From assembly GCA_003166955.1 (NCBI GenBank), contig PMUI01000067.1:1-64000 (forward strand): a DNA stretch of 64,000 nt. Reading direction: 5' to 3'. The DNA comes from Acidobacterium sp. (GTDB taxonomy: Bacteria; Acidobacteriota; Terriglobia; Terriglobales; Acidobacteriaceae). The notes beneath the pieces are model-generated. The model was not told the DNA's origin, did no database searches, and saw nothing but the letters and a program-made list of their open reading frames with translations. The translations under genes and the position numbers were made by a program. Of this stretch, positions 630 to 25,022 are shown piece after piece (within the stretch, counting starts at the first letter, position 1; each line of letters starts with the position of its first letter).

Positions 630-1898
630 ATTCGGATTCGCCGGCGGATTCGGAGGTGGACTGGTCTGCGACTGCCCCGAGTTCGAATTCGAGCCGCTCT
701 GCGGCTGCGAACCCGAACCAGCAGGCTGCGACCCCGATCCCTGCGACCCCGAATCCTGAGGCTTCGCCGACACCGTCGGCTTATACCCAGGATCCCCCGG
801 CCGCTGCAAATCCGGCGGCATCTTCACCGGTTGCATCGATCCGACAGGTTTGTCCTTGTCGTCGTCCGCCGGCAGTTCCTCGCCCGGTTTGCGCAGCGTC
901 GGGGCTGCTCGCGGTGCGTTCTCCTGGGTGCGGTCTGCATCGGTTGAATCGCCCAGCTTCACCTCATGCTGGTTCTTCGCAACCACCGGCTGATTGCCCC
1001 AGTAGTCGCCCATCTCGTTCTCGCTGCGCTCCTGGATCGGTTCGCCCACCTTCGCCAGCTGCACTCGCATCGCGAAGCTGCCTTCAAACCAGATCATCTC
1101 GACTGGCTGCGGCGACTCGCCATAAATCCAGATCTCAACCGGCTTCCCGTCCGCGCCCGTCTCCCGCACCTTCCGCATCGGCTGGCCCTTCGCAAACACC
1201 ACCATGTCCCGATCCATGCCCACCAGCACGCGATGCTGCTCGATCGCCTTGCGCAGAAAATCCGGCAGCGTCTCGGCAAACGCCTCCGCCGGCGACTTCA
1301 CGCCGAAGTCGATCATCGGCTTCAGCAGTCCCTGCAGTTGTTCGCCGTTCAGGTCCGGCACCCGTTCTTCGAACAGAAGAATCAGCCGCACTCCGGTCGG
1401 CGGCGTCCCGTCGTCGGCCGCCAGCGGCGTCTCCATCCCGCCCCCGCCGATCGCAATGTGCCGCAGATATTTGTGTTTGTGCTCCGGCCCGCCGTTCAGG
1501 TCCAGCTCAATCGTCTTTTCGCGAATCCTGATGTCGGTCACTACCACGCGGTCGCCGGCCTTCACTGACATGCCCTTCTGGTGCAGCTCCTCGACGTACT
1601 TCTCGCCGGTCGGATCCATGTGCCCGTTGGCGTGCAGCGTCAGATTCGCAATCGGCAGCGGCCGCATCGCAAACCCCTGCTCCGACTGCATGAATCGGAT
1701 CAGCTCTTCGCGGCCCAGCTGCGTCATCGGCTGCTCCGGATACTTCACGTGCGTCGGCGCAAACTCGGTGTAATGCTTCTCGACGTGCTCCGCCTCAACA
1801 ACGAACACCTGCGCGCGAAGAGGCAATGCGATGACAAGAAACGGTAGCGCGCAAAACGCCGCCAGAAGGGGGAAACCGGCACGTTCAGTCCTGGACAT
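627..1898 (-). CDS. Secreted protein of unknown function with a low-complexity tail
   Basis: A 423-residue protein. The start at 1898 (MSRTERAGF) is chosen because a typical signal peptide follows, ending near LPLRAQ; an upstream in-frame Met would add 33 residues without signal character. The mature part has a mixed-composition region (about residues 35-330) with no motif I recognise. The final roughly 110 residues are rich in Pro, Gly, Ser, Gln and Asn, with repeated GSQ and PPNPP words, typical of a disordered exported tail. It stands alone, followed by a hairpin terminator at 511-543. The product probably acts in the periplasm or cell envelope; no catalytic residues can be named. Confidence 0.75.
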   Translation of the reverse strand: MSRTERAGFPLLAAFCALPFLVIALPLRAQVFVVEAEHVEKHYTEFAPTHVKYPEQPMTQLGREELIRFMQSEQGFAMRPLPIANLTLHANGHMDPTGEKYVEELHQKGMSVKAGDRVVVTDIRIREKTIELDLNGGPEHKHKYLRHIAIGGGGMETPLAADDGTPPTGVRLILLFEERVPDLNGEQLQGLLKPMIDFGVKSPAEAFAETLPDFLRKAIEQHRVLVGMDRDMVVFAKGQPMRKVRETGADGKPVEIWIYGESPQPVEMIWFEGSFAMRVQLAKVGEPIQERSENEMGDYWGNQPVVAKNQHEVKLGDSTDADRTQENAPRAAPTLRKPGEELPADDDKDKPVGSMQPVKMPPDLQRPGDPGYKPTVSAKPQDSGSQGSGSQPAGSGSQPQSGSNSNSGQSQTSPPPNPPANPN

Positions 1899-2049
1899 AG
1901 AACCGCCTATCCATGGGAGCAGACTTCTTTCAGAATGGCCCTGTTCTGAGGAAAATTCAAGCGCTATGCCCGCGTCCATATCCAATTGTCCGCGCACGAA
2001 ACAAGACCTGGTTGGAGAGCCGGTCCCGCGGTTTCGTTGCCAGAGGATT

Positions 2050-4542
2050 TCACTCCGGCGCGGATTCGCGCCCCGAGCCTCCGCCCTGGCCTGCGACCGC
2101 TGCCGGCGCCGGGTTTTTCACGTAGGTGTCGAGCCAGTTGTCCATCTCCCACAGCATGTGCTCGAGCGACTCGCGCGCCGCGTAGCCGTGCGCCTCCAGC
2201 GGCAGGAACACCAGCCGCACGGTCGCGCCGTGACCCTTCAGCGCGTCGAAGAACCGCTCGCTTTGTATCGGAAATGTCCCGGAATTGTTGTCCGCCTCGC
2301 CGTGAATCATCAGCAGCGGAGCCTTGATTTTGTCCGCATACGAGAACGGCGACATTTTGAAGTACACATCCGGAGCCTCCCAGTAGCTGCGCTCCTCGTT
2401 CTGAAACCCAAACGGCGTAAGCGTCCTGTTGTACGCGCCGCTGCGCGCAATGCCCGCTTTGAAGAGGTCGCTGTGAGCCAGCAGATTCGCCGTCATAAAC
2501 GCGCCGTACGAATGCCCCATCACGGCCACGCGATTGCGATCCACCACGCCCAGCCGCGCGCCTTCGTCGATGGCCGCCTTCGCGCTCGAGACCAGCTGCT
2601 CGACGTACGTGTCGTTGGGCTGCGCATCGCCTTCGCCGACAATCGGGATCGCGGTATTCTCCAGCACCGCATAACCCTGCGTCACGAAGAACACCGGACT
2701 GCCCCACGAAAAGCGCGGGAACTGGTACGGCGATCCGGTAATCTGCCCCGCCGCCGAGCGCGACTTATACTCCGTCGGATAGGCCTCCATCAGCGTGGGC
2801 AGCGGCCCATCCGACGACTTGTACCCCGGCGGCAAATACAAATTCGCGCTCAGCTCCACCCCGTCCGCGCGCTTGTAGCGCAGAATCTGCTTCTTCGGCA
2901 GCGGCGTATCGCCATAAGGATTCGGGAAGTCCGTCACCTGCGTCAGCTCTCCCGCTGCGTTGCGCAGAAAATAATTCGGCGCCTGCTCCTGCGATTCGCG
3001 CCGGATCAGCAGCACGCCTTTTGCCCCGTCGATCACCGTCCCTGGCATCTCATAAAACGGAGCAGCGGAGCGCCAAATCTGCTCTTCTTTGCCGGTCGAG
3101 GTACTCATCACCGCCACGAACGGACGATCGCCTTCCGGACTCGCGCCCGGCGAGCTGAAATAGATCCCCGTCCCATCCGCCGTCATGTTCAGCACCAGGT
3201 GACCCGACGCATTTTCGCGGAAGACCGGCCGCCCCGGATCCTGATAGCGGTTCTCCGACGATCCCTCGTACAGCTTCTGCACCTGCGGTGCGCTTGCCGA
3301 CGGATCGACCTCGGCGATCACGCGCCGGCGGTGCGCCCACTCACGCTCGTTCAGCAGCGCCAGATGCTCGTTGCCCCATTCGATCCCCGCGAAGCGCATT
3401 GGGAGCTCGGCCAGCACCTGCGGCGAACCGGTGAACGGCGCATCCAGCAAATCGATCCGATCCCGCACCTCTGCCTTTTTCTTCGGATCGCCGCCGTCTC
3501 CGGCTTCCACCCAGGCCACCGTCGCAGGAGCATCGGATCGCCACTCGTAGTCGCGCGGCCCCACCGGCACCGCATCCTGTGCGATCGGAACATTGTCGGC
3601 CAGCGGCACGTCGGAGAGCTGCTTCTCCGCTCCCGTCCGCAAATCCACTACCATCGTGCGCCGCGGGAAATTCTCAAACGGCAGCTCGTACGAATAAGGA
3701 TGATGGCTCCCCGAAACCAGCGCGAAATGCCCGTCCGGCGATGGGTCCGCGGAGTCGATCACTGCAGGCTTGCCCACTGCCTTCGACCCTCCTGCCAGCG
3801 ACACTACGCGGACCTGCGCCGTCGCGTAGTAATCGAAGAAGCGCTCGTCTTCGGGATTCTTCAGCAAATCCTCGTAGGTCCGCGCCGGCGTCACCCGTCC
3901 CAGGTTTTGCTGCACCGCCGGGCCCGTCGGCACTTCGGAATGGGTTGGCGCTGTTCCGCGCCCCGTCGGAACCGTCAGACACAGCAGGCTGCGGCTGTCC
4001 GGCATCCACGAGCACGGATCGCCGAAAACCCCGTTCAGCGCCACGCCCGGAATGCGCGCCGCCTGCCCTGTTGCCGCATCGGCGGTCCACACGGTCAGCC
4101 CCGCCCCCGGATTTGTGCCCGTGATCAGCACAAATGCCACCCGCTTCGCATCCGGCGACCATTGCACGTATTCGATGTGCGGCTTCGCCGCCAGTCCCGT
4201 CACCGCAACCTCTTTCCCCGCGGGCAGCGTCTTGAACTTCAGTCCGATAATGTACGGCAGTCGGCTCGGTCCATTCGTCCGAGGATTGAATCGCAAACCC
4301 GCCAGCCGCAGTTCCGGCTGCGCCAGGTCCGCAATCGTCAGCAACCCGCCCGGCTGTTCGATCAGCAGCGTTCGCGGCCCGCTCTTCGATTCCGGCGAAA
4401 CCACCACCAGCGGCGTCGGTGGCGCTTCCAGCAGATCGGCGATCGCCTTAGGCGGCTTTTGATACGTGATGCTGCTTTGTGCAAACGCGGAAGCGGCCAC
4501 CAACACGCCGGCGGAGAAGGAAAGCAGAGAGCGCAGGTTCAC
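2050..4542 (-). CDS. Secreted S9-family serine peptidase, glutamyl-endopeptidase-like
   Basis: An 830-residue exported peptidase with a signal peptide (MNLRSLLSFSAG... ending at ASAFAQ). The first roughly 560 residues form the beta-propeller-type N-terminal region of prolyl-oligopeptidase relatives. The C-terminal alpha/beta hydrolase domain shows the nucleophile motif GHSYGAF (Ser about 678), HGEADNNSGT (Asp about 751) and LEAHGYAARES (His about 785). The motifs around Asp and His closely match plant chloroplast glutamyl endopeptidase (S9D), which suggests cleavage after acidic residues; that specificity is inferred. The gene is monocistronic and is followed at 1898 by an unrelated secreted protein on the same strand. 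No defect is visible. Confidence 0.9.
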   Translation of the reverse strand: MNLRSLLSFSAGVLVAASAFAQSSITYQKPPKAIADLLEAPPTPLVVVSPESKSGPRTLLIEQPGGLLTIADLAQPELRLAGLRFNPRTNGPSRLPYIIGLKFKTLPAGKEVAVTGLAAKPHIEYVQWSPDAKRVAFVLITGTNPGAGLTVWTADAATGQAARIPGVALNGVFGDPCSWMPDSRSLLCLTVPTGRGTAPTHSEVPTGPAVQQNLGRVTPARTYEDLLKNPEDERFFDYYATAQVRVVSLAGGSKAVGKPAVIDSADPSPDGHFALVSGSHHPYSYELPFENFPRRTMVVDLRTGAEKQLSDVPLADNVPIAQDAVPVGPRDYEWRSDAPATVAWVEAGDGGDPKKKAEVRDRIDLLDAPFTGSPQVLAELPMRFAGIEWGNEHLALLNEREWAHRRRVIAEVDPSASAPQVQKLYEGSSENRYQDPGRPVFRENASGHLVLNMTADGTGIYFSSPGASPEGDRPFVAVMSTSTGKEEQIWRSAAPFYEMPGTVIDGAKGVLLIRRESQEQAPNYFLRNAAGELTQVTDFPNPYGDTPLPKKQILRYKRADGVELSANLYLPPGYKSSDGPLPTLMEAYPTEYKSRSAAGQITGSPYQFPRFSWGSPVFFVTQGYAVLENTAIPIVGEGDAQPNDTYVEQLVSSAKAAIDEGARLGVVDRNRVAVMGHSYGAFMTANLLAHSDLFKAGIARSGAYNRTLTPFGFQNEERSYWEAPDVYFKMSPFSYADKIKAPLLMIHGEADNNSGTFPIQSERFFDALKGHGATVRLVFLPLEAHGYAARESLEHMLWEMDNWLDTYVKNPAPAAVAGQGGGSGRESAPE

Positions 4543-11646: not shown

Positions 11647-12126
11647 TCAGTTCGCTTCCGGAACCCGGTGATACAGCCGATCCATGCGCGTGATGGCCAG
11701 CGTATAGTGCGTGGCCAGGTAGCGTGGCGCTCTGGGCGATGGAGCCAGCGCGCGCACATCCACTCCGCCCCCGTGGAACCGGACCCGCACACCTGTTTGG
11801 GGCGTCAGACCGGCCAGCACATTCTTGTTGGGGACCTCCAGCGAATGGATCTCCGGCGTCACCGTGGCGCCGATCATTGCCAGGATTTCCGAGTTGCTCG
11901 GCCCCGAGCGCAGAACGAACGGCTTCCCGTCCAGCAGGATCGTGTAGAACTTGTCGGATGGCCTGGAGCAGTATTCGAACGTCGGATCCGGCCGGCAAGT
12001 TGTTGCGCCCAGATAAGTCGCCTCCCGATATTCGGGAATCGGCGCCCGCCGCACCGAGGGCACCTGGGCCGCAGCTGAGCCGCAGCAAAAAGCGCAGACC
12101 ACGAGACTCGCGGCGTACCGGTGCAC
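11647..12126 (-). CDS. Secreted protein of unknown function
   Basis: A 159-residue protein starting with a GTG codon at 12126 and carrying a signal peptide (MHRYAASLVVCAFCCGSAAAQ). The mature part contains two cysteines near the start (TTCRPDPTFEYCSRP) and a conserved-looking core YTILLDGKPFVLRSG. Other frames over the same bases lack a signal peptide. No family is recognised. Confidence 0.65.
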   Translation of the reverse strand: MHRYAASLVVCAFCCGSAAAQVPSVRRAPIPEYREATYLGATTCRPDPTFEYCSRPSDKFYTILLDGKPFVLRSGPSNSEILAMIGATVTPEIHSLEVPNKNVLAGLTPQTGVRVRFHGGGVDVRALAPSPRAPRYLATHYTLAITRMDRLYHRVPEAN

Positions 12127-12294
12127 GCGCGAAGTCTACCAGAAGGGAGCACAGCTCGCGGTGGAATCTCCGCGACGTTTGGATTTGGATCGGTTCACTA
12201 CGGGCTACAGGCTACCGGCTCCTGCCTGGTGCCTATTGCCTATTGCCTGCTCTTCGGCGCTATACTTCCCCGATCCACGAAAAGGAGGCATCCT

Positions 12295-12788
12295 ATGGAC
12301 CCAAGAAGCGAAGCGGCCCTTGCCACCGTCAGCCCGGATTTAGCGGCGAAGGTGCGCATGGCCTCAGCACAACTCGCGGCGCAAGGGACCTTTTTCTCGT
12401 CGTCTCCGGTTTGCGGACCGCCGCGGAGCAGAATGCCTTGTACGCACAGGGCAGGACCACGCCCGGGCACATCGTGACCAATGCCAGGGCCGGTTTGTCG
12501 ATGCACAACTATGGCCTGGCCGTGGACGCAGTTCCCTATATGTCCGGAGATGGAGGCGCACTCAACTGGACGCCCAATACGCCTCAGTATCAGGCGTTTG
12601 TGGCGGCGATGAAGGCGCAGGGCCTGATCTGGGGCGGCGACTGGGTGAGCATACCCGACGAGGATCATTTTCAGATGCCGGGGCTGGCGGTGACGCCGAC
12701 CAGCGCCATGCAGGCCGACTACGGAGATGGTGGCCCGGCCGCGCTGGCCGCCATATGGACCAAAGCCACGCCCGGGGCCTACGCCTGA
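12295..12788 (+). pseudogene. M15-type peptidoglycan peptidase gene broken by a frameshift
   Basis: The reading frame opens at 12295 with a very good ribosome site (aaaggagg, 12280-12287) and encodes MDPRSEAALATVSPDLAAKV..., the usual start of VanY/CwlK-like M15 peptidases. Around 12380-12395 the family sequence moves into the -1 frame, continuing LFLVVSGLRTAAEQNALYAQ, then the zinc-binding SMHNYGLAVDAV and DEDHFQM motifs, to a stop at 12788. One base seems to be missing near gggacctttttc. All zinc ligands survive in the second frame, so the lesion is recent, or a sequencing error in a homopolymer. The intact product would trim peptidoglycan peptides. No signal peptide is visible. Confidence 0.8.
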
Positions 12789-20367: not shown

Positions 20368-20744
20368 CTGCTGCCTCCCTTGATCTTTTGTGCTGGCGCT
20401 ACCTCGCTCTGGCAACCGGGGGCAAAAGTCTTTATCGGATTGCAAACCTAATCCAGTGCAGCCCTGTAGTCAACCGGCGGAGCGATGCGACCTGCAAACG
20501 GTAAACTGCCTGCGACGCGATAGGGGATACTTCCGGGGGCGGACTTCGCCCGTGGAGATGGCCGGTGACACCCCGGAGTTGGACGCATGTCCGTATTGGA
20601 TTTTTCGAGCGACACCCTCCCCCTGTGGAAAATCTGTCAAGCCCCGATCCCAAAATCCAAAGTAATGACCCCACATTCCAAGCCACTTACAAGCCACCAA
20701 CGCAAAAGATATTTGGCAGTTTTATTCTCCGGACTTGGTATCCT
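20368..20744. other. Intergenic stretch left of the transposon, no gene seen
   Basis: No supported gene. The stretch becomes A/T-rich towards the right (ttattctccggacttggtatcc). Joined with the sequence right of the transposon it would restore the uninterrupted site ...tatcctAAAGATATagggtaaa. It may carry the promoter of the membrane-protein gene ending at 19867. Confidence 0.5.
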
Positions 20745-20752
20745 AAAGATAT
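20745..20752. repeat. Left target-site duplication AAAGATAT
   Basis: Eight bases directly outside the left terminal inverted repeat; an identical AAAGATAT directly follows the right terminal repeat at 24503-24510. Eight base pairs is the duplication length of the IS1595 family. Confidence 0.93.
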
Positions 20753-20774
20753 GGGAATTATATACTTGACTCCC
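20753..20774 (+). repeat. Left terminal inverted repeat of the transposon
   Basis: 22 bases starting gggaattatata and ending cttgactccc. It matches the inverted right end at 21 of 22 positions; the only difference is at position 4. Confidence 0.95.
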
Positions 20775-20834
20775 GCGCCCCTTTTTGGCGTGGCAGTGTG
20801 GACTGGCCTAGAATCAAGCAGGGGTACCGGCAAC

Positions 20835-21074
20835 ATGGACAACATTGACGAACCGATCATCTTGGATTGCGACGAGTGCGGCACGAACACAGTCTTTGGT
20901 CCAGACGGGCTTAAAAGTGACGAGCGTATTACCTGCCCTGCCTGTCACATGGATTACGGTTCCGTGGCAGAAATTCTTACTCTCAAAAAGGCTGCGGCAG
21001 AAACCGCTCAATTTCGCTTTGGGAAGACTTTTGAGGGTGTCGAAGACATCAAGTTCACGAAGGATGACATTTAA
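20835..21074 (+). CDS. Passenger: small zinc-ribbon protein (copy A)
   Basis: A 79-residue protein starting MDNIDEPIILDCDECGTNTV at 20835. Two Cys pairs, CDEC (residues 12-15) and CPAC (34-37), with PDGLKSDERIT between them make a typical zinc ribbon. The C-terminal 40 residues are helical and charged. It is paralogous to the protein at 22787-23014 on the other side of the transposase; both are preceded by gggtaccgg. The gene starts 60 bases inside the left end. The role is unknown: DNA or protein binding is plausible. An antisense frame exists but lacks any motif. Confidence 0.78.
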   Translation: MDNIDEPIILDCDECGTNTVFGPDGLKSDERITCPACHMDYGSVAEILTLKKAAAETAQFRFGKTFEGVEDIKFTKDDI

Positions 21075-21123
21075 GTTCGCCCAGCAATTTGCATCAATAC
21101 GTCCTTCAATCAATCTCATATCT

Positions 21124-21140
21124 CTCCAAACAGAAAACCC
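21124..21140. repeat. 17-bp direct repeat ctccaaacagaaaaccc, copy 1
   Basis: Identical to 21610-21626. Each copy is followed by a short inverted repeat (here gcc-atttca-ggc), so on the minus strand each looks like a hairpin followed by ggttttctgtttgg, that is, a terminator tail. Confidence 0.8.
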
Positions 21141-21161
21141 GCCATTTCAGGCGAGCCGTGG

Positions 21162-21187
21162 TTGACTCCCGTACCCCCTTTTGGGCG
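21162..21187 (+). repeat. Inner degenerate copy of the left transposon end
   Basis: ttgactcccgtaccccc and following ttttgggcg align with 20766-20790 just inside the left end (ttgactcccgcgcccc, tttttggcg). It precedes the second passenger gene as the true end precedes the first. Confidence 0.6.
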
Positions 21188-21204
21188 CGAGGTATGATCA
21201 GGGA

Positions 21205-21426
21205 ATGGCGAAGAGGAAACCCGTGGTGCATCCACCGATAAAGTGTGATACTCCGGGTTGTGACAGAGAGGCCGTGGTCAGTTTCAGAAAATACAGACCA
21301 GTGCCAGCCACATCACCTGTTGAATTTCTTCACATCTCAACCACAAATTGTTGTGAGATACACGCCCCAGAAGTCGAAGTGCACCATTCAGGGCCAAACG
21401 ACACCAAGGTGCCACTCGCAAGCTAA
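21205..21426 (+). CDS. Passenger: small Cys/His protein (copy B)
   Basis: A 73-residue protein starting MAKRKPVVHPPIKCDTPGCD at 21205; caggga precedes the ATG closely. The residues KCDTPGCDREA and CCEIH form a C-x4-C...CxxH arrangement that could bind zinc. It resembles the convergent protein at 21423-21605 (C-x4-C-xxEA...CxxH), so the two may be diverged paralogues. Its stop overlaps that gene's stop by four bases. Function unknown. Confidence 0.62.
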   Translation: MAKRKPVVHPPIKCDTPGCDREAVVSFRKYRPVPATSPVEFLHISTTNCCEIHAPEVEVHHSGPNDTKVPLAS

Positions 21427-21605
21427 AGAGAGGCTAACGCAAGCCTTACAAATTCTTCGTGCTTCGCACAATATGAGACAACGAGTGGCATACCCGGCGG
21501 CGTGGTTACAGGCGCACCAACGGTCCTTGTTTCTCCAAACTTACCGATAAAACCAATGGCTTCTTTCTTACAGCCACTTGCGCCACACCTTCGATCCGGG
21601 GTCAT
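21423..21605 (-). CDS. Passenger: small Cys/His protein (copy B')
   Basis: A 60-residue protein starting MTPDRRCGASGCKKEAIGFI at 21605. The ribosome site ggagg sits three bases before the ATG and is contained in the 17-bp direct repeat region. The motif RCGASGCKKEA...YCAKHE matches the pattern of the convergent protein at 21205-21426. A longer version with 21 more residues would begin inside the terminator hairpin and is less likely. Function unknown; a zinc-binding fold is plausible. Confidence 0.6.
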   Translation of the reverse strand: MTPDRRCGASGCKKEAIGFIGKFGETRTVGAPVTTPPGMPLVVSYCAKHEEFVRLALASL

Positions 21606-21609
21606 AATC

Positions 21610-21626
21610 CTCCAAACAGAAAACCC
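21610..21626. repeat. 17-bp direct repeat ctccaaacagaaaaccc, copy 2
   Basis: Identical to 21124-21140, 486 bases apart. On the minus strand it provides the T-rich terminator tail and then the ribosome site of the gene at 21423-21605. Confidence 0.85.
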
Positions 21627-21639
21627 ACCGTCAGGTGGG
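21614..21639 (-). terminator. Hairpin terminator after the transposase operon
   Basis: The perfect stem cccacc/ggtggg (21624-21639, loop gtca) is followed on the minus strand by ttttctgttt. The stop codon of the coupled small ORF (21633-21631) lies in the loop. The plus strand also has a pyrimidine run (ctctttcttcttt), so it may work in both directions. Confidence 0.8.
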
Positions 21640-21765
21640 CTCTTTCTTCTTTGATTTGGCAAGCGCACGTCGCCTGCGTTTCTTCTGTGCCTTAGTTCTC
21701 GGCTTTGGCCGGTAGGCTAGTACTTTGTCCACAATCCTGTTCAAAACGTCGGGAGCGTCTTTCAT
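21631..21765 (-). CDS. Small basic protein coupled to the transposase
   Basis: A 44-residue ORF, start MKDAPDVLNRIVDKVLAYRP, whose ATG (21765-21763) overlaps the transposase stop codon in the form ATGA, a classic sign of translational coupling. The second half is strongly basic (KAQKKRRRRALAKSKKKEPT), suggesting nucleic-acid or transposase binding. I recall similar short basic ORFs behind transposases of this type, which supports a role as an accessory factor; that is from memory and untested. Its stop is in the loop of the operon terminator. Confidence 0.75.
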   Translation of the reverse strand: MKDAPDVLNRIVDKVLAYRPKPRTKAQKKRRRRALAKSKKKEPT

Positions 21766-22676
21766 GCCGTCAACCTCGCATACGTGAGGCGAATGCCCTT
21801 GGTCGCGGCGATGAAACTCTCCAGCCGGTCCAGCGTGTGACGCTTCACGGTGCCATCATTCAGGCGGAAGGTGAACTCATCCACGTAACGGGTGATGTGC
21901 TTGGCGCTCACCTGATGGTAGACGCCGTGGATGCCGCGCTTCATGACCGCCCAGACGCTCTCCATGCCGTTCGTGGTCACACCGTCACGGGAATACTCGC
22001 CGACTGCATGATTGACCGTCTCGTGGAAGTAGTAATAAGCAAGTCCCTGATAGCCGCTGTGCTCGTCTGTGTGGAGTTCTGAGCCGCCTTCGATGTTCTC
22101 GTGGATGGTTTCGTGCAGCGCGATCCCGTCAACTTTAGCAAGGGCTTTGGCCTTAATCCGTCCGCCTTTTTCGCGCATCCCCAGAACCGCAGTCTTGCCG
22201 ATGGTTCCGCGTCCGCGCTTCTGTTTCTTGCTCTCGTGCTTATTCTTCTCTTTGCCTCCGAAGTAGGCTTCGTCAACTTCGACAACACCACGGAGCAACG
22301 TGAGGTCATTACCGCACGCCTCACGGAGCCGCTGAAGGACAAACCAGGCCGACTTCTGAGTGATGCCAATCTCTTTAGCCAACTGCATACTGGAGATTCC
22401 CTTGCGGGCAGTGACCAGCAGGTACATGGCGTATACCCACTTGTGGAGTGGAACGTGTGACCGCTCAAAGATGGTTCCCGTGCGGACGGTGAAGTCCAGC
22501 TTGCAGGCATTGCAGCGGTAGAAGCCGCCCTTGCGGGTCGTGATCCGTTCCTGACCCTTGCAGGTCGGACAGACTACACCGTTCGGCCAGAGACGCGCTT
22601 CAAGGTAGACCCGTGCGGTTTCAGCATCGGGGAACATCTGGAAGAGTTGGAAGGTGCTGATCGTGCTCTGGCTCAT
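21762..22676 (-). CDS. IS1595-family (ISXO2-like) transposase
   Basis: A 304-residue DDE transposase, apparently intact. The N-terminal zinc ribbon has CPTC (Cys 36, 39) and CNAC (Cys 55, 58). A helix-turn-helix region (SSMQLAKEIGITQKSAWFVL) follows, then the catalytic core: VEVDEAYFGG (Asp 135), LHTDEHSGY (Asp 204) and NGMESVWAVMKRGI (Glu 239). The ATG at 22676 is preferred over a TTG two codons earlier. It acts on the terminal repeats at 20753-20774 and 24481-24502. The coupled 44-residue ORF follows with ATGA overlap, and a terminator closes the operon. Confidence 0.95.
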   Translation of the reverse strand: MSQSTISTFQLFQMFPDAETARVYLEARLWPNGVVCPTCKGQERITTRKGGFYRCNACKLDFTVRTGTIFERSHVPLHKWVYAMYLLVTARKGISSMQLAKEIGITQKSAWFVLQRLREACGNDLTLLRGVVEVDEAYFGGKEKNKHESKKQKRGRGTIGKTAVLGMREKGGRIKAKALAKVDGIALHETIHENIEGGSELHTDEHSGYQGLAYYYFHETVNHAVGEYSRDGVTTNGMESVWAVMKRGIHGVYHQVSAKHITRYVDEFTFRLNDGTVKRHTLDRLESFIAATKGIRLTYARLTA

Positions 22677-22702
22677 GAACAAATAGTACTTAAGTCCCGT
22701 GA

Positions 22703-22723
22703 GGGAGTCAAGTATTATTTTGG
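22703..22723 (-). repeat. Inner degenerate copy of the right transposon end
   Basis: gggagtcaagtat (13 bases) is identical to the start of the right terminal repeat at 24481, then diverges (tattttgg against ataatcccc). It lies 26 bases upstream of the transposase start and, with 21162-21187, forms an inner inverted pair around the transposase. Confidence 0.75.
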
Positions 22724-22786
22724 CGTTTTAACAACCTATTTTCAATCAAGTAGAATATGATGAAGGGTACCGGAGATGTTCGCCAT

Positions 22787-23014
22787 ATGGAAGACACGAT
22801 CATTCTCAATACGTTTCAGGTTCAACCGCGCTGCATCAAGTGCGGCAGCGATAACCTTCTCATGCCCGATGGTGCCCTCGACCAAAGTGACCTCGCCGAC
22901 GACAGTCCGATTACCTGTGGAGGCTGTGGTGCTATCTACACCTATGTTGAACTTGTCGAAGCCTGTGAAGCGAGTAAGGCAAACGATCTCATAAACGGCA
23001 CCGGGGCGGGATAG
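22787..23014 (+). CDS. Passenger: small zinc-ribbon protein (copy A')
   Basis: A 75-residue protein starting MEDTIILNTFQVQPRCIKCG. Cys pairs CIKC and CGGC flank MPDGALDQSDLADDSPIT, giving the same zinc-ribbon plan as the protein at 20835-21074 (C..CG....PDG....ITC..C...Y). Both genes have gggtaccgg upstream, which supports choosing 22787 as the start; an ATG at 22760 in frame is possible. Function unknown. Its position mirrors copy A across the transposase. Confidence 0.75.
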   Translation: MEDTIILNTFQVQPRCIKCGSDNLLMPDGALDQSDLADDSPITCGGCGAIYTYVELVEACEASKANDLINGTGAG

Positions 23015-23100
23015 TGCTCTTTCCACTCGGAGTGAAACCTCTACAGGGATTGTGCCAAGTTTGCTACCCATGTTTCTCCTAATACAGAGAGGTGATGGAA

Positions 23101-23772
23101 ATGAAGACATTAACGCTACTGCTCTTGGCGACGGCATTGTCCTGCCAAGCACAAACAAGCCCGACAATCAAAGGTCACAAGTTGGGCGAAAGCCTGCAAG
23201 AGTTTGTGAACAATGCCAGCCCGACAACAACATACCTTATCAATTCATGCAAGTCTGATACAGACAGTGAAAACTATTCATGGTGCGTCGGCATCTACGG
23301 GATCACGACTCTTCTGGCCAAACCTGACGTGTCACCTACAGGTATAGACATGAAATGCGACACGAAAGCAGTAGACTTTCAAAATGTCGGTGCACTTGCC
23401 TCTCCCTTGGGAAAAACGTATATCCAATCGTGGTGTGCCGATTTCGATGGCGAAATCACATTCGAGGGAAACAAGCTGGTGCGCATCCAAACCAAAATCA
23501 TCCCTACTGGCCCTTGGAGCCAATCCTATAGCAGCTTGGTCAATAAATTCGGTAAGCCCACCACAACCCAATCACAAGTGCTTCAAAACGGCTTCGGCGC
23601 AAGGTTCCGCACAACTGATGGTTTGTGGGTAAGCAAAGGTTACAGCGTTCGGGCGCAGGAACTCTTGAATGATGATCTATCCAGATACGTCACGGTAGAA
23701 ATGATGACACCCGCTTACGCACACGAACAAATTCAAGAGGAACAGAAGGCACACGCCAATACGCTCGACTAG
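23101..23772 (+). CDS. Passenger: secreted protein of unknown function
   Basis: A 223-residue exported protein. The ATG at 23101 follows agagagg by 8 bases and opens a signal peptide MKTLTLLLLATALSCQAQ. The mature start SPTIKGHKLGESLQEFV is a pattern I associate with small secreted acidobacterial proteins. Four cysteines (SCKSD, SWCVG, MKCDT, SWCAD) could form two disulfides. Base composition is A/T-richer than in chromosomal genes. Nothing suggests an enzyme; it is the largest passenger. Confidence 0.75.
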   Translation: MKTLTLLLLATALSCQAQTSPTIKGHKLGESLQEFVNNASPTTTYLINSCKSDTDSENYSWCVGIYGITTLLAKPDVSPTGIDMKCDTKAVDFQNVGALASPLGKTYIQSWCADFDGEITFEGNKLVRIQTKIIPTGPWSQSYSSLVNKFGKPTTTQSQVLQNGFGARFRTTDGLWVSKGYSVRAQELLNDDLSRYVTVEMMTPAYAHEQIQEEQKAHANTLD

Positions 23773-23861
23773 CAAGTACGCCACCTACTAGGCAGCAGTA
23801 CCATTTTGACTTTTCAGAAGAATTTCTTCTACAAGTTTTGTGCTCAGAAAGGAGCAATCCA

Positions 23862-24032
23862 ATGGCAAAGGTACGAGCATATCATACAAGTTCAATGGAA
23901 GAACCGCCGAAAAATAGAGAGGTCCACCACGATCACGACGACTGCTTTGAAGGCAAGAAAATTGAAAAGAAGCATTGGGAAAAAGGAACCGGAGGGAAGC
24001 CACGCTGTAAAGAGTGCATCAAACTCGGCTAG
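23862..24032 (+). CDS. Passenger: small Cys/His-rich protein
   Basis: A 56-residue protein starting MAKVRAYHTSSMEEPPKN. A strong ribosome site (aaaggag) lies about 8 bases before the ATG at 23862. The core VHHDHDDCFEGKKI...GGKPRCKECIKLG resembles a recurrent family of short bacterial proteins with a His/Asp/Cys cluster and a CxxC end, probably metal-binding. The stop codon overlaps that of the next gene on the other strand (shared CTAG). Confidence 0.72.
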   Translation: MAKVRAYHTSSMEEPPKNREVHHDHDDCFEGKKIEKKHWEKGTGGKPRCKECIKLG

Positions 24033-24334
24033 TGCAACCGTTCGCGGAACGTAATCTCCCAATGAGGTCCGGTCACATCATTTGTATCCAATACATCCCA
24101 TACACGCCTTAGAGATTGAACCGGCAATCCATGGGTGAGACAAACCGAAACGGCGCTCCAGCCTGCCCCCGGTCCGCCGTAAAAGGCGACTGTCGGCTCC
24201 GGATAGGCGTGACCAGTACCTCCTTCACAGGATTCAAAAGTTTCGATGTCGTATTTTTGGAAAACTTCAACGGCTTTCCGAATGCCTACGTCTAGCTGTC
24301 CGACTATATGATCTGTGGGCGGCGGTTCCGGCAT
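24029..24334 (-). CDS. Passenger: small conserved protein of unknown function
   Basis: A 101-residue protein starting MPEPPPTDHIVGQLDVGIRK at 24334. The segment AVEVFQKYDIETFESCEGG, then HAYPEPTVAFYG, and the ending WDVLDTNDVTGPHWEITFRE, is a sequence pattern I recognise from uncharacterised proteins of diverse bacteria. The frame stays open upstream across the transposon end, but that extension is low-complexity and not protein-like. It lies 146 bases from the right end. Confidence 0.75.
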   Translation of the reverse strand: MPEPPPTDHIVGQLDVGIRKAVEVFQKYDIETFESCEGGTGHAYPEPTVAFYGGPGAGWSAVSVCLTHGLPVQSLRRVWDVLDTNDVTGPHWEITFRERLH

Positions 24335-24480
24335 CTGACGTTCTTTCGGCGCGGATCGCGCAGTATGCAAAATCAAGCCGCGTGTATTTTGCCGCGTCTC
24401 TGGTTCTTTTGTGCGCTCTAGGTGTGATCGTACCTGTCTACTGGATTTCAAACGACTAAATTCTCCGTTTCTGTCCGTTA

Positions 24481-24502
24481 GGGAGTCAAGTATATAATCC
24501 CC
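24481..24502 (-). repeat. Right terminal inverted repeat of the transposon
   Basis: 22 bases beginning gggagtcaag and ending ataatcccc on the plus strand; the reverse complement matches the left end with one difference. Confidence 0.95.
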
Positions 24503-24510
24503 AAAGATAT
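24503..24510. repeat. Right target-site duplication AAAGATAT
   Basis: Identical to 20745-20752 and directly adjoining the right terminal repeat. Confidence 0.93.
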
Positions 24511-24558
24511 AGGGTAAAAAGAGAAATCTTCCCGTAACTCCCGTAGATCGGAAACACC

Positions 24559-24590
24559 AAAAAGCCTCGCTCGCGCGAGGCTTTTTTATT
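24559..24590. terminator. Strong bidirectional hairpin terminator
   Basis: aaaaagcctcgc-tcgc-gcgaggctttttt: a 7-bp perfect stem with A and T tracts on the two sides, so it can stop transcription from either direction. It lies outside the transposon and separates it from the RNase H region. Confidence 0.88.
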
Positions 24591-24629
24591 GCCGGGAGAA
24601 TCGCCGTGGCTTGCGATTGCCCAATTCGC

Positions 24630-24800
24630 TCCGCCGAGTTTGCATCAAACCCGGCCGCGCCTGAAGCAAACTCAGCCGCGTTTGACGGCAACGCGGCCGA
24701 GTACCCGTCAAACTCGGCCAACCATGAGTCAAACGCAGCCGAGTTACAAATGACCCGCACTGAATCATCTACGCCTAACTCGGCCGCGTTTGACGCAAAC
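24630..24800. repeat. 21-bp degenerate tandem array
   Basis: Six consecutive 21-bp units (24630-24755) and one separate unit (about 24780-24800) share the words aactcggcc / gccgagttt and gcgtttgacg. The words are partly self-complementary, so both strands read similar heptapeptides (for example SAAFDGN, AAEYPSN). It lies between the terminator and the RNase H gene; 24801-25022 then holds no recognisable gene. Confidence 0.7.
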
Positions 24801-25022
24801 AAGTTCACGTCTGAATCAATCTCAGCCAGGTATCCATCTGATAGGTCCGCAGTCACTTGCCCGACCCATCGGATCGAACAGTTCCGCCAACGCAATGAAA
24901 ACAAGTCAACTGCCCAAAAACAGACCCCCCCAAAAAATTTCCCGCGATCGAAGCTCTGCACCAAAATCGATGCAAACAGAGGACAGCAAGACCCGGCTCA
25001 ACCCTTCCGCTAAACTCGGTCT

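Follow-up and report, generated by a model that had tools for sequence, protein, structure and literature searches.

An IS1595-family transposon carrying cargo genes in an Acidobacterium chromosome, and its relatives in uncultivated viral contigs

Transposons of the IS1595 family encode a transposase with an N-terminal zinc ribbon in all groups except IS1016 (PMC8101967). Members which also carry passenger genes are known as transporter IS, or tIS (a passage of PMC3129680 citing Siguier 2009), while phages are regarded as containing few transposable elements, if any (a passage of PMC9600943 citing Leclercq and Cordaux 2011). The element described here is like the tIS of Siguier, Gagnevin and Chandler (2009) in having a DDE_Tnp_IS1595 domain with a zinc ribbon, ends which start with GG, an 8-bp duplication and passenger genes; what is particular to the present lineage is a coupled basic peptide, residence in phages, slot-wise exchange of cargo and nesting. 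Some of its relatives (L184, L190, L192, L195, L197 and L246) are similar to mobile insertion cassettes (MIC, e.g. MIC231) or MITEs, having a gene or filler but no transposase between cognate ends, and by analogy these would be moved in trans, whereas the element in our window has its own transposase. ISApl4/Tn7560, from the IS1016 group (PMC12561309), shares the family and an A/T-rich 8-bp duplication but is a compound structure of two IS copies, unlike the single unit with one functional pair of ends found here. Integron gene cassettes also combine a fixed platform with exchangeable small genes, but the present element uses a DDE transposase and inverted ends. In the open-access literature searched, neither an IS1595 lineage resident in phages nor the coupled peptide, slot-wise exchange or nesting turned out to be described, and this negative is a limited one because the key paper (Siguier 2009) and ISfinder fell outside the search. 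The transporter-IS type has already been described, and what appears to be new is the phage-associated lineage, its tag peptide, the exchange of cargo in fixed slots and the nesting.

The window is a 64,000-nucleotide stretch of Acidobacterium sp. contig PMUI01000067.1 (assembly GCA_003166955.1), and the features of the element found within it are listed in Table 1. We consider it likely that this locus is an autonomous IS1595-family transposon which belongs to a phage-associated lineage with exchangeable cargo, contains a probable decayed nested pair and is inserted in a chromosomal repeat.

Table 1 Features of the element and its immediate borders (positions within the window).
Feature	Position	Strand	Description
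Target duplication, left copy	20745..20752		8 bp, AAAGATAT; single copy in empty site L231
IS1595-family element	20753-24502		3.75 kb, between 22-bp inverted ends
Terminal inverted repeat, transposase-distal	20753..20774	+	Same 22-mer family in 83 relatives
Cargo A	20835..21074	+	79 aa, two CxxC pairs; paralogue of cargo E (E=2e-4)
Weak hairpin module	21118..21160		CTCCAAACAGAAAACCC..; repeated at 21605-21650; twice in L040
Inner decayed transposase-distal end copy	21149..21170	+	Core TTGACTCCC at 21162-21170; same position in L040
Cargo B	21205..21426	+	73 aa, Cys-containing
Cargo C	21423..21605	-	60 aa; weakly similar to B (33% over 21 aa); GGAGG ribosome site
Terminator-like hairpin after small coupled gene	21605..21650		-16 kcal/mol, U-rich tail
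Conserved small basic protein (tag)	21631..21765	-	44 aa, tag LNRIVDKVLAYRPKPR and basic tail; 4-base overlap with the transposase stop
IS1595-family transposase	21762..22676	-	ATG at 22676; TTG at 22682 possible
Transposase promoter	22683..22711	-	TTGACT-17 bp-TACTAT, predicted from sequence
Inner decayed transposase-proximal end copy	22703..22724	-	GCCAAAATAATACTTGACTCCC; likewise in L040
Cargo E	22787..23014	+	75 aa, zinc-ribbon protein; ECs_2282 6.9e-8 (below cut-off), phrog_23920 3.1e-8
Cargo F	23095..23772	+	225 aa, signal-like N-terminal stretch; without known family
Cargo G	23862..24032	+	56 aa, uncertain; good ribosome site
Cargo H	24029..24334	-	101 aa; distant match, Mesorhizobium plasmid (49% over 47 aa, 2e-7)
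Terminal inverted repeat, transposase-proximal, outer	24481..24502	-	Outermost right end
Target duplication, right copy	24503..24510		AAAGATAT, directly outside end

The two outer ends are identical at 21 of 22 bp when inverted and, with a perfect AAAGATAT duplication, an intact transposase and matching empty sites, they bear out the original prediction of a complete IS1595-family unit with cargo. The GC content of the element is 51%, against 62% in its surroundings. When the flanks are joined without the element they match a dispersed repeat with a core of about 145 bp which occurs many times in the genus; a third AAAGATAT copy at 20705-20712 is part of this target repeat. An empty site reading TATCCT-AAAGATAT-AGGGTAAA had been predicted and is present in a genome of the same genus (L231 in G002), where GGTATCCTAAAGATAT abuts AGGGTAAAAAC to give the exact single-copy target. 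Another empty site in the element's own genome (L223, 89% over 214 bp) has TATCCTAAATATAT next to AGGGTAGAAA. Both are other copies of the repeat and not the orthologous locus, and together they confirm the borders and the duplication.

This dispersed intergenic repeat lies in a bacterial chromosome, with genes for RNase H and SpoIIE to the right of the element and one isolated endolysin-like gene 8 kb away to the left. No phage structural genes were found among the ORFs scanned around the element, and it does not qualify as prophage-borne. It is the only copy in its own assembly (5.4 Mb, 142 contigs), and no further ends were found elsewhere in that assembly with up to 3 mismatches allowed. 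The genome contains approximately 12 other IS1595 transposases, but these are only about 40% identical to that of the element and belong elsewhere. A compound transposon was also considered and rejected, as there is one transposase, the ends are single 22-bp repeats and no IS flanks the unit. Recent movement of the whole unit, which had been suggested previously, is compatible with the perfect duplication and the intact genes, but there is a single copy and no age can be assigned.

The transposase matched the profiles PF12762 (4.7e-42), PF12760 (1.2e-9) and NF033547 (2.5e-57) (above cut-off), and consists of a zinc ribbon followed by D137, D206 and E241 (numbered from the TTG). These three catalytic residues are invariant in 84/84 aligned complete elements, as are three of the four zinc-ribbon cysteines, the fourth being present in 83. 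The gene is intact and its product is predicted to be active; a search of the PDB with the protein gave no match. By the family definition (PMC8101967), the DDE_Tnp_IS1595 domain with its D-D-E triad, the zinc ribbon and the 8-bp duplication are those of IS1595. The same definition describes a single transposase gene, usually with no other gene, while our unit has a coupled small gene and seven cargo ORFs. It should be noted that this point is worded as "usually" and that tIS are an accepted form of the family: here the ends of one IS-type unit enclose passenger genes that have nothing to do with transposition. The transposase would bind the 22-bp ends and insert the unit at staggered positions, 8 bp apart, in an A/T-rich target. 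Given the anatomy observed, everything between the outermost functional ends would be expected to move.

Seven candidate cargo ORFs are present besides the transposase and its coupled gene, in agreement with the original prediction; we regard F, E, A and H as well founded, B and C as probable and G as uncertain. None of the seven was recognised as a resistance or metabolic gene, again as predicted. Cargo B and C are both small Cys proteins. AlphaFold without alignments gave a pLDDT of 34 for cargo F and 45 for cargo H, and these models were set aside. We found no relatives of cargo A–H in the other elements compared, and searches of related genomes and viral contigs likewise gave no meaningful match.

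Relatives of the element with 52–74% protein identity were found in MAGs labelled with many phyla; some contamination of such bins by phage contigs is likely. They have the 22-mer GGGAATTATATACTTGACTCCC and 8-bp duplications in common with the window element. We obtained 83 non-redundant complete elements of 1448–4344 bp (median 1900); an exact 8-bp duplication was found in 64/83 of these, compared to 5/6806 mismatched left/right pairings, so the duplications are not due to chance. A scan of uncultivated viral contigs gave 164 related stretches (the 80 best were retained). The same procedure gave 13 when run with one of the ordinary IS1595 transposases from the element's own genome, the peptide patterns differing between the two scans. 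The flanks of the viral relatives contain portal, terminase, capsid, DnaB and RecT genes: L143 has a terminase gene on one side and a portal gene on the other, and L142 lies between genes for DNA polymerase and ribonucleotide reductase. In a tree of 107 transposases viral and genomic copies interleave, and the window protein groups with the viral L106 and then with L031 (bootstrap 99). On this sequence evidence, the closest relatives of the window element are mostly in bacterial-virus genomes. No match at ≥ 60% was found among INPHARED phages, so the link to phages rests on uncultivated viral contigs, and no plasmid relative was found at ≥ 60%, on which ground a plasmid-borne lineage was rejected. 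As the window copy sits in a chromosome, its delivery by a phage is something that we infer.

A peptide with the pattern LDxIADxVLxYRPKPK and a basic tail, which we call the tag, is encoded in 81/84 complete elements, downstream of the transposase and often across its stop codon. A model of the tag built from elements of the genome collection only, with no viral sequences, found it in 63/64 viral elements, while giving one match in 397 kb of viral flanks and one in the window, at the expected place. The tag matched no family in Pfam, PHROG or NCBIfam. The small basic protein made from this overlapping gene belongs to the core of the element, where it would probably act together with either the transposase or the end DNA.

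The TTGACTCCC core occurs exactly four times in the 64 kb, at 20766(+), 21162(+), 22703(-) and 24481(-), corresponding to an outer and an inner pair of ends in nested orientation. The outer half is missing from the inner transposase-proximal copy, but TTGACT-17-TACTAT has been kept, with the TTGACT box falling inside this copy; the -35 box of the transposase promoter would thus be supplied by the inner half of an end, and the inverted core between the promoter boxes is a possible operator. The inner ends have no 8-bp duplication (GTTTTAAC vs GCCATTTC). The inner relics and the hairpin modules recur in L040, whose transposase falls in a different subclade. The hairpin module was dismissed as a general cassette recombination site, since it was seen only in these two elements besides one chance-like match. 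We suggest that a transposase-bearing element probably came to lie within another pair of ends, an arrangement that is intact in L148, and this would explain why the window element is larger than most; the inner ends would then have decayed, one surviving as the transposase promoter, leaving the outer ends to bound the 3.75-kb unit. The window element looks like an old nested pair in which the function has passed to the outer ends, although such an arrangement could also have arisen by end capture or recombination. These two decayed copies refine our reading of a complete element without refuting it. The same is true of ends without a full element between them, which the original prediction had counted as contrary evidence: transposase-less copies do occur (L190, L195 and L184).

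The 115 cargo ORFs of ≥ 75 aa formed 100 clusters, and only C5- and N4/N6-methyltransferases were recurrent. Unrelated cargo was found in elements with 88–97% identical transposase DNA. L142, L143, L145, L150 and L156, and likewise L168/L170, have their first 80–98 bp (end and promoter) in common and again everything between roughly the start codon of the transposase and the far end, with unrelated genes separating the two shared parts. In L138/L144, L152/L167 and L181/L184 the part from the end to the transposase is constant and the downstream part differs. Cargo breakpoints often lie at the promoter and where the transposase gene starts, and the genomic flanks, which were compared in most of the backbone-sharing groups, are unrelated. 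Comparison of these copies shows cargo being replaced in fixed slots while the backbone stays. The slots would be before the transposase, or between the transposase and tag and the far end, and exchange could occur by homologous recombination in shared segments or by nesting followed by deletion. In L148 a complete element (duplication ATCGAAAG, with its own transposase and tag) lies in the cargo slot of another (duplication TAAAAAAG); a 787-aa "cargo" ORF of L148 was discarded as an artefact antisense to the nested element. Single-gene cassettes of 285–411 bp with cognate ends and perfect duplications were found in L184, L190, L195 and L246.

The main rival to nesting is an exchange of arms, given the lack of a duplication at the inner ends. 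The element would then have grown by end capture or by homologous recombination in the shared promoter and end segments, an explanation which we regard as quite possible while leaning slightly against it. The relics and modules shared between the window element and L040 across subclades look as if arms had been exchanged, and the cargo breakpoints coincide with conserved promoter and transposase segments, but L148 and L246 are intact nested insertions with both duplications present. It is very improbable that the locus is a dead remnant with a fortuitous duplication; this might be expected from a single copy with two decayed inner ends and many small cargo ORFs on both strands, but not from a transposase with conserved triad and cysteines, ends matching at 21/22, a perfect duplication and an intact predicted promoter.

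As to the origin of the cargo, an ordinary IS1595 transporter IS could have picked up seven chromosomal genes in one chance event, with the viral relatives and variable cargo as background. IS1595 members with passenger genes are known (in the passage of PMC3129680) and the context is chromosomal. We nevertheless find this unlikely: for the two cargo genes searched, E and H, neither 150 related genomes nor the rest of their own genome yielded a homologue, the cargo DNA has no match in 100 relatives, and variable cargo, tag and phage residence are characteristic of the whole lineage. A more plausible suggestion, though still a rather doubtful one, is that the cargo is defence or host-takeover equipment selected for the benefit of the phage, making the element a phage gene-delivery unit. 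DNA methyltransferases recur (9 C5, 5 N4/N6 and one Dam-type match), one SfiI-type restriction pair, NADAR, PAPS reductase and HNH are among the cargo, and cargo E resembles phage-type zinc-binding proteins; set against this, most cargo ORFs are without any match and restriction partners are rarely recognisable.

Returning to the reading of a phage-associated transposon with exchangeable cargo, different genes at fixed positions in near-identical copies make the lineage look like a gene-shuffling platform that links phages and bacteria. We tentatively suggest, as an idea to which we are not committed, that the phage-resident lineage is a gene-exchange platform in which the promoter end, transposase, tag peptide and far end make up a constant backbone, while the genes in its slots undergo wholesale swaps between elements and phages; the tag, alone or fused to methyltransferases and P63C proteins, would dock cargo products to the transposase or the ends. 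If so, a small and widespread phage-borne cargo transposon, hopping between unrelated phages and chromosomes while swapping methyltransferases, an SfiI-type restriction pair and many small genes at set places, would give a definite path by which the accessory genes of phages could turn over quickly. A candidate new accessory factor of a DDE transposase is seen in the tag peptide. In five elements (L032, L052, L055, L106 and L126) a methyltransferase or P63C protein has the tag as its N-terminus, the tagged methyltransferase of L032 being followed by the SfiI-type restriction enzyme.

The target of insertion was a dispersed intergenic repeat, which occupies 20624-20752 and 24511-24935 of the window and is found in many copies in the same genome and in other genomes of the genus. 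This repeat has a core of approximately 145 bp, with the closest copies extending to approximately 550 bp, and its longer versions include the series of degenerate repeats built around AACTCGGCCGCGTTTGA which adjoins the element at 24606-24990. Elsewhere in the window (11724-12788) we found a gene whose product contains an M15 peptidase domain and matches an endolysin PHROG (2.7e-31); no phage structural genes were found among its neighbours.

Outside the window, four single-gene cassettes without a transposase were identified (285-411 bp, encoding 77-120 aa), each lying between cognate ends and having perfect 8-bp duplications.

Positions of the single-gene cassettes in four stretches outside the window
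Stretch	Positions
L190	1501-1807
L195	1112-1522
L184	6780-7064
L246	2498-2858

A further stretch contained an intact Russian-doll transposon (L148:727-5070), in which one complete element (1624-3784) is enclosed by another, each with perfect 8-bp duplications. The motif of the tag peptide, the short basic protein usually encoded beside the transposase, opens a long frame continuing for approximately 390 codons past the tag in two other stretches (L092:1-3003 and L096:1-3149). An IS1595 element in another (L032:4119-6743) carries as cargo a complete type II restriction-modification pair, in which the N4/N6 methyltransferase forms a fusion with the tag peptide and the endonuclease is of the SfiI type.
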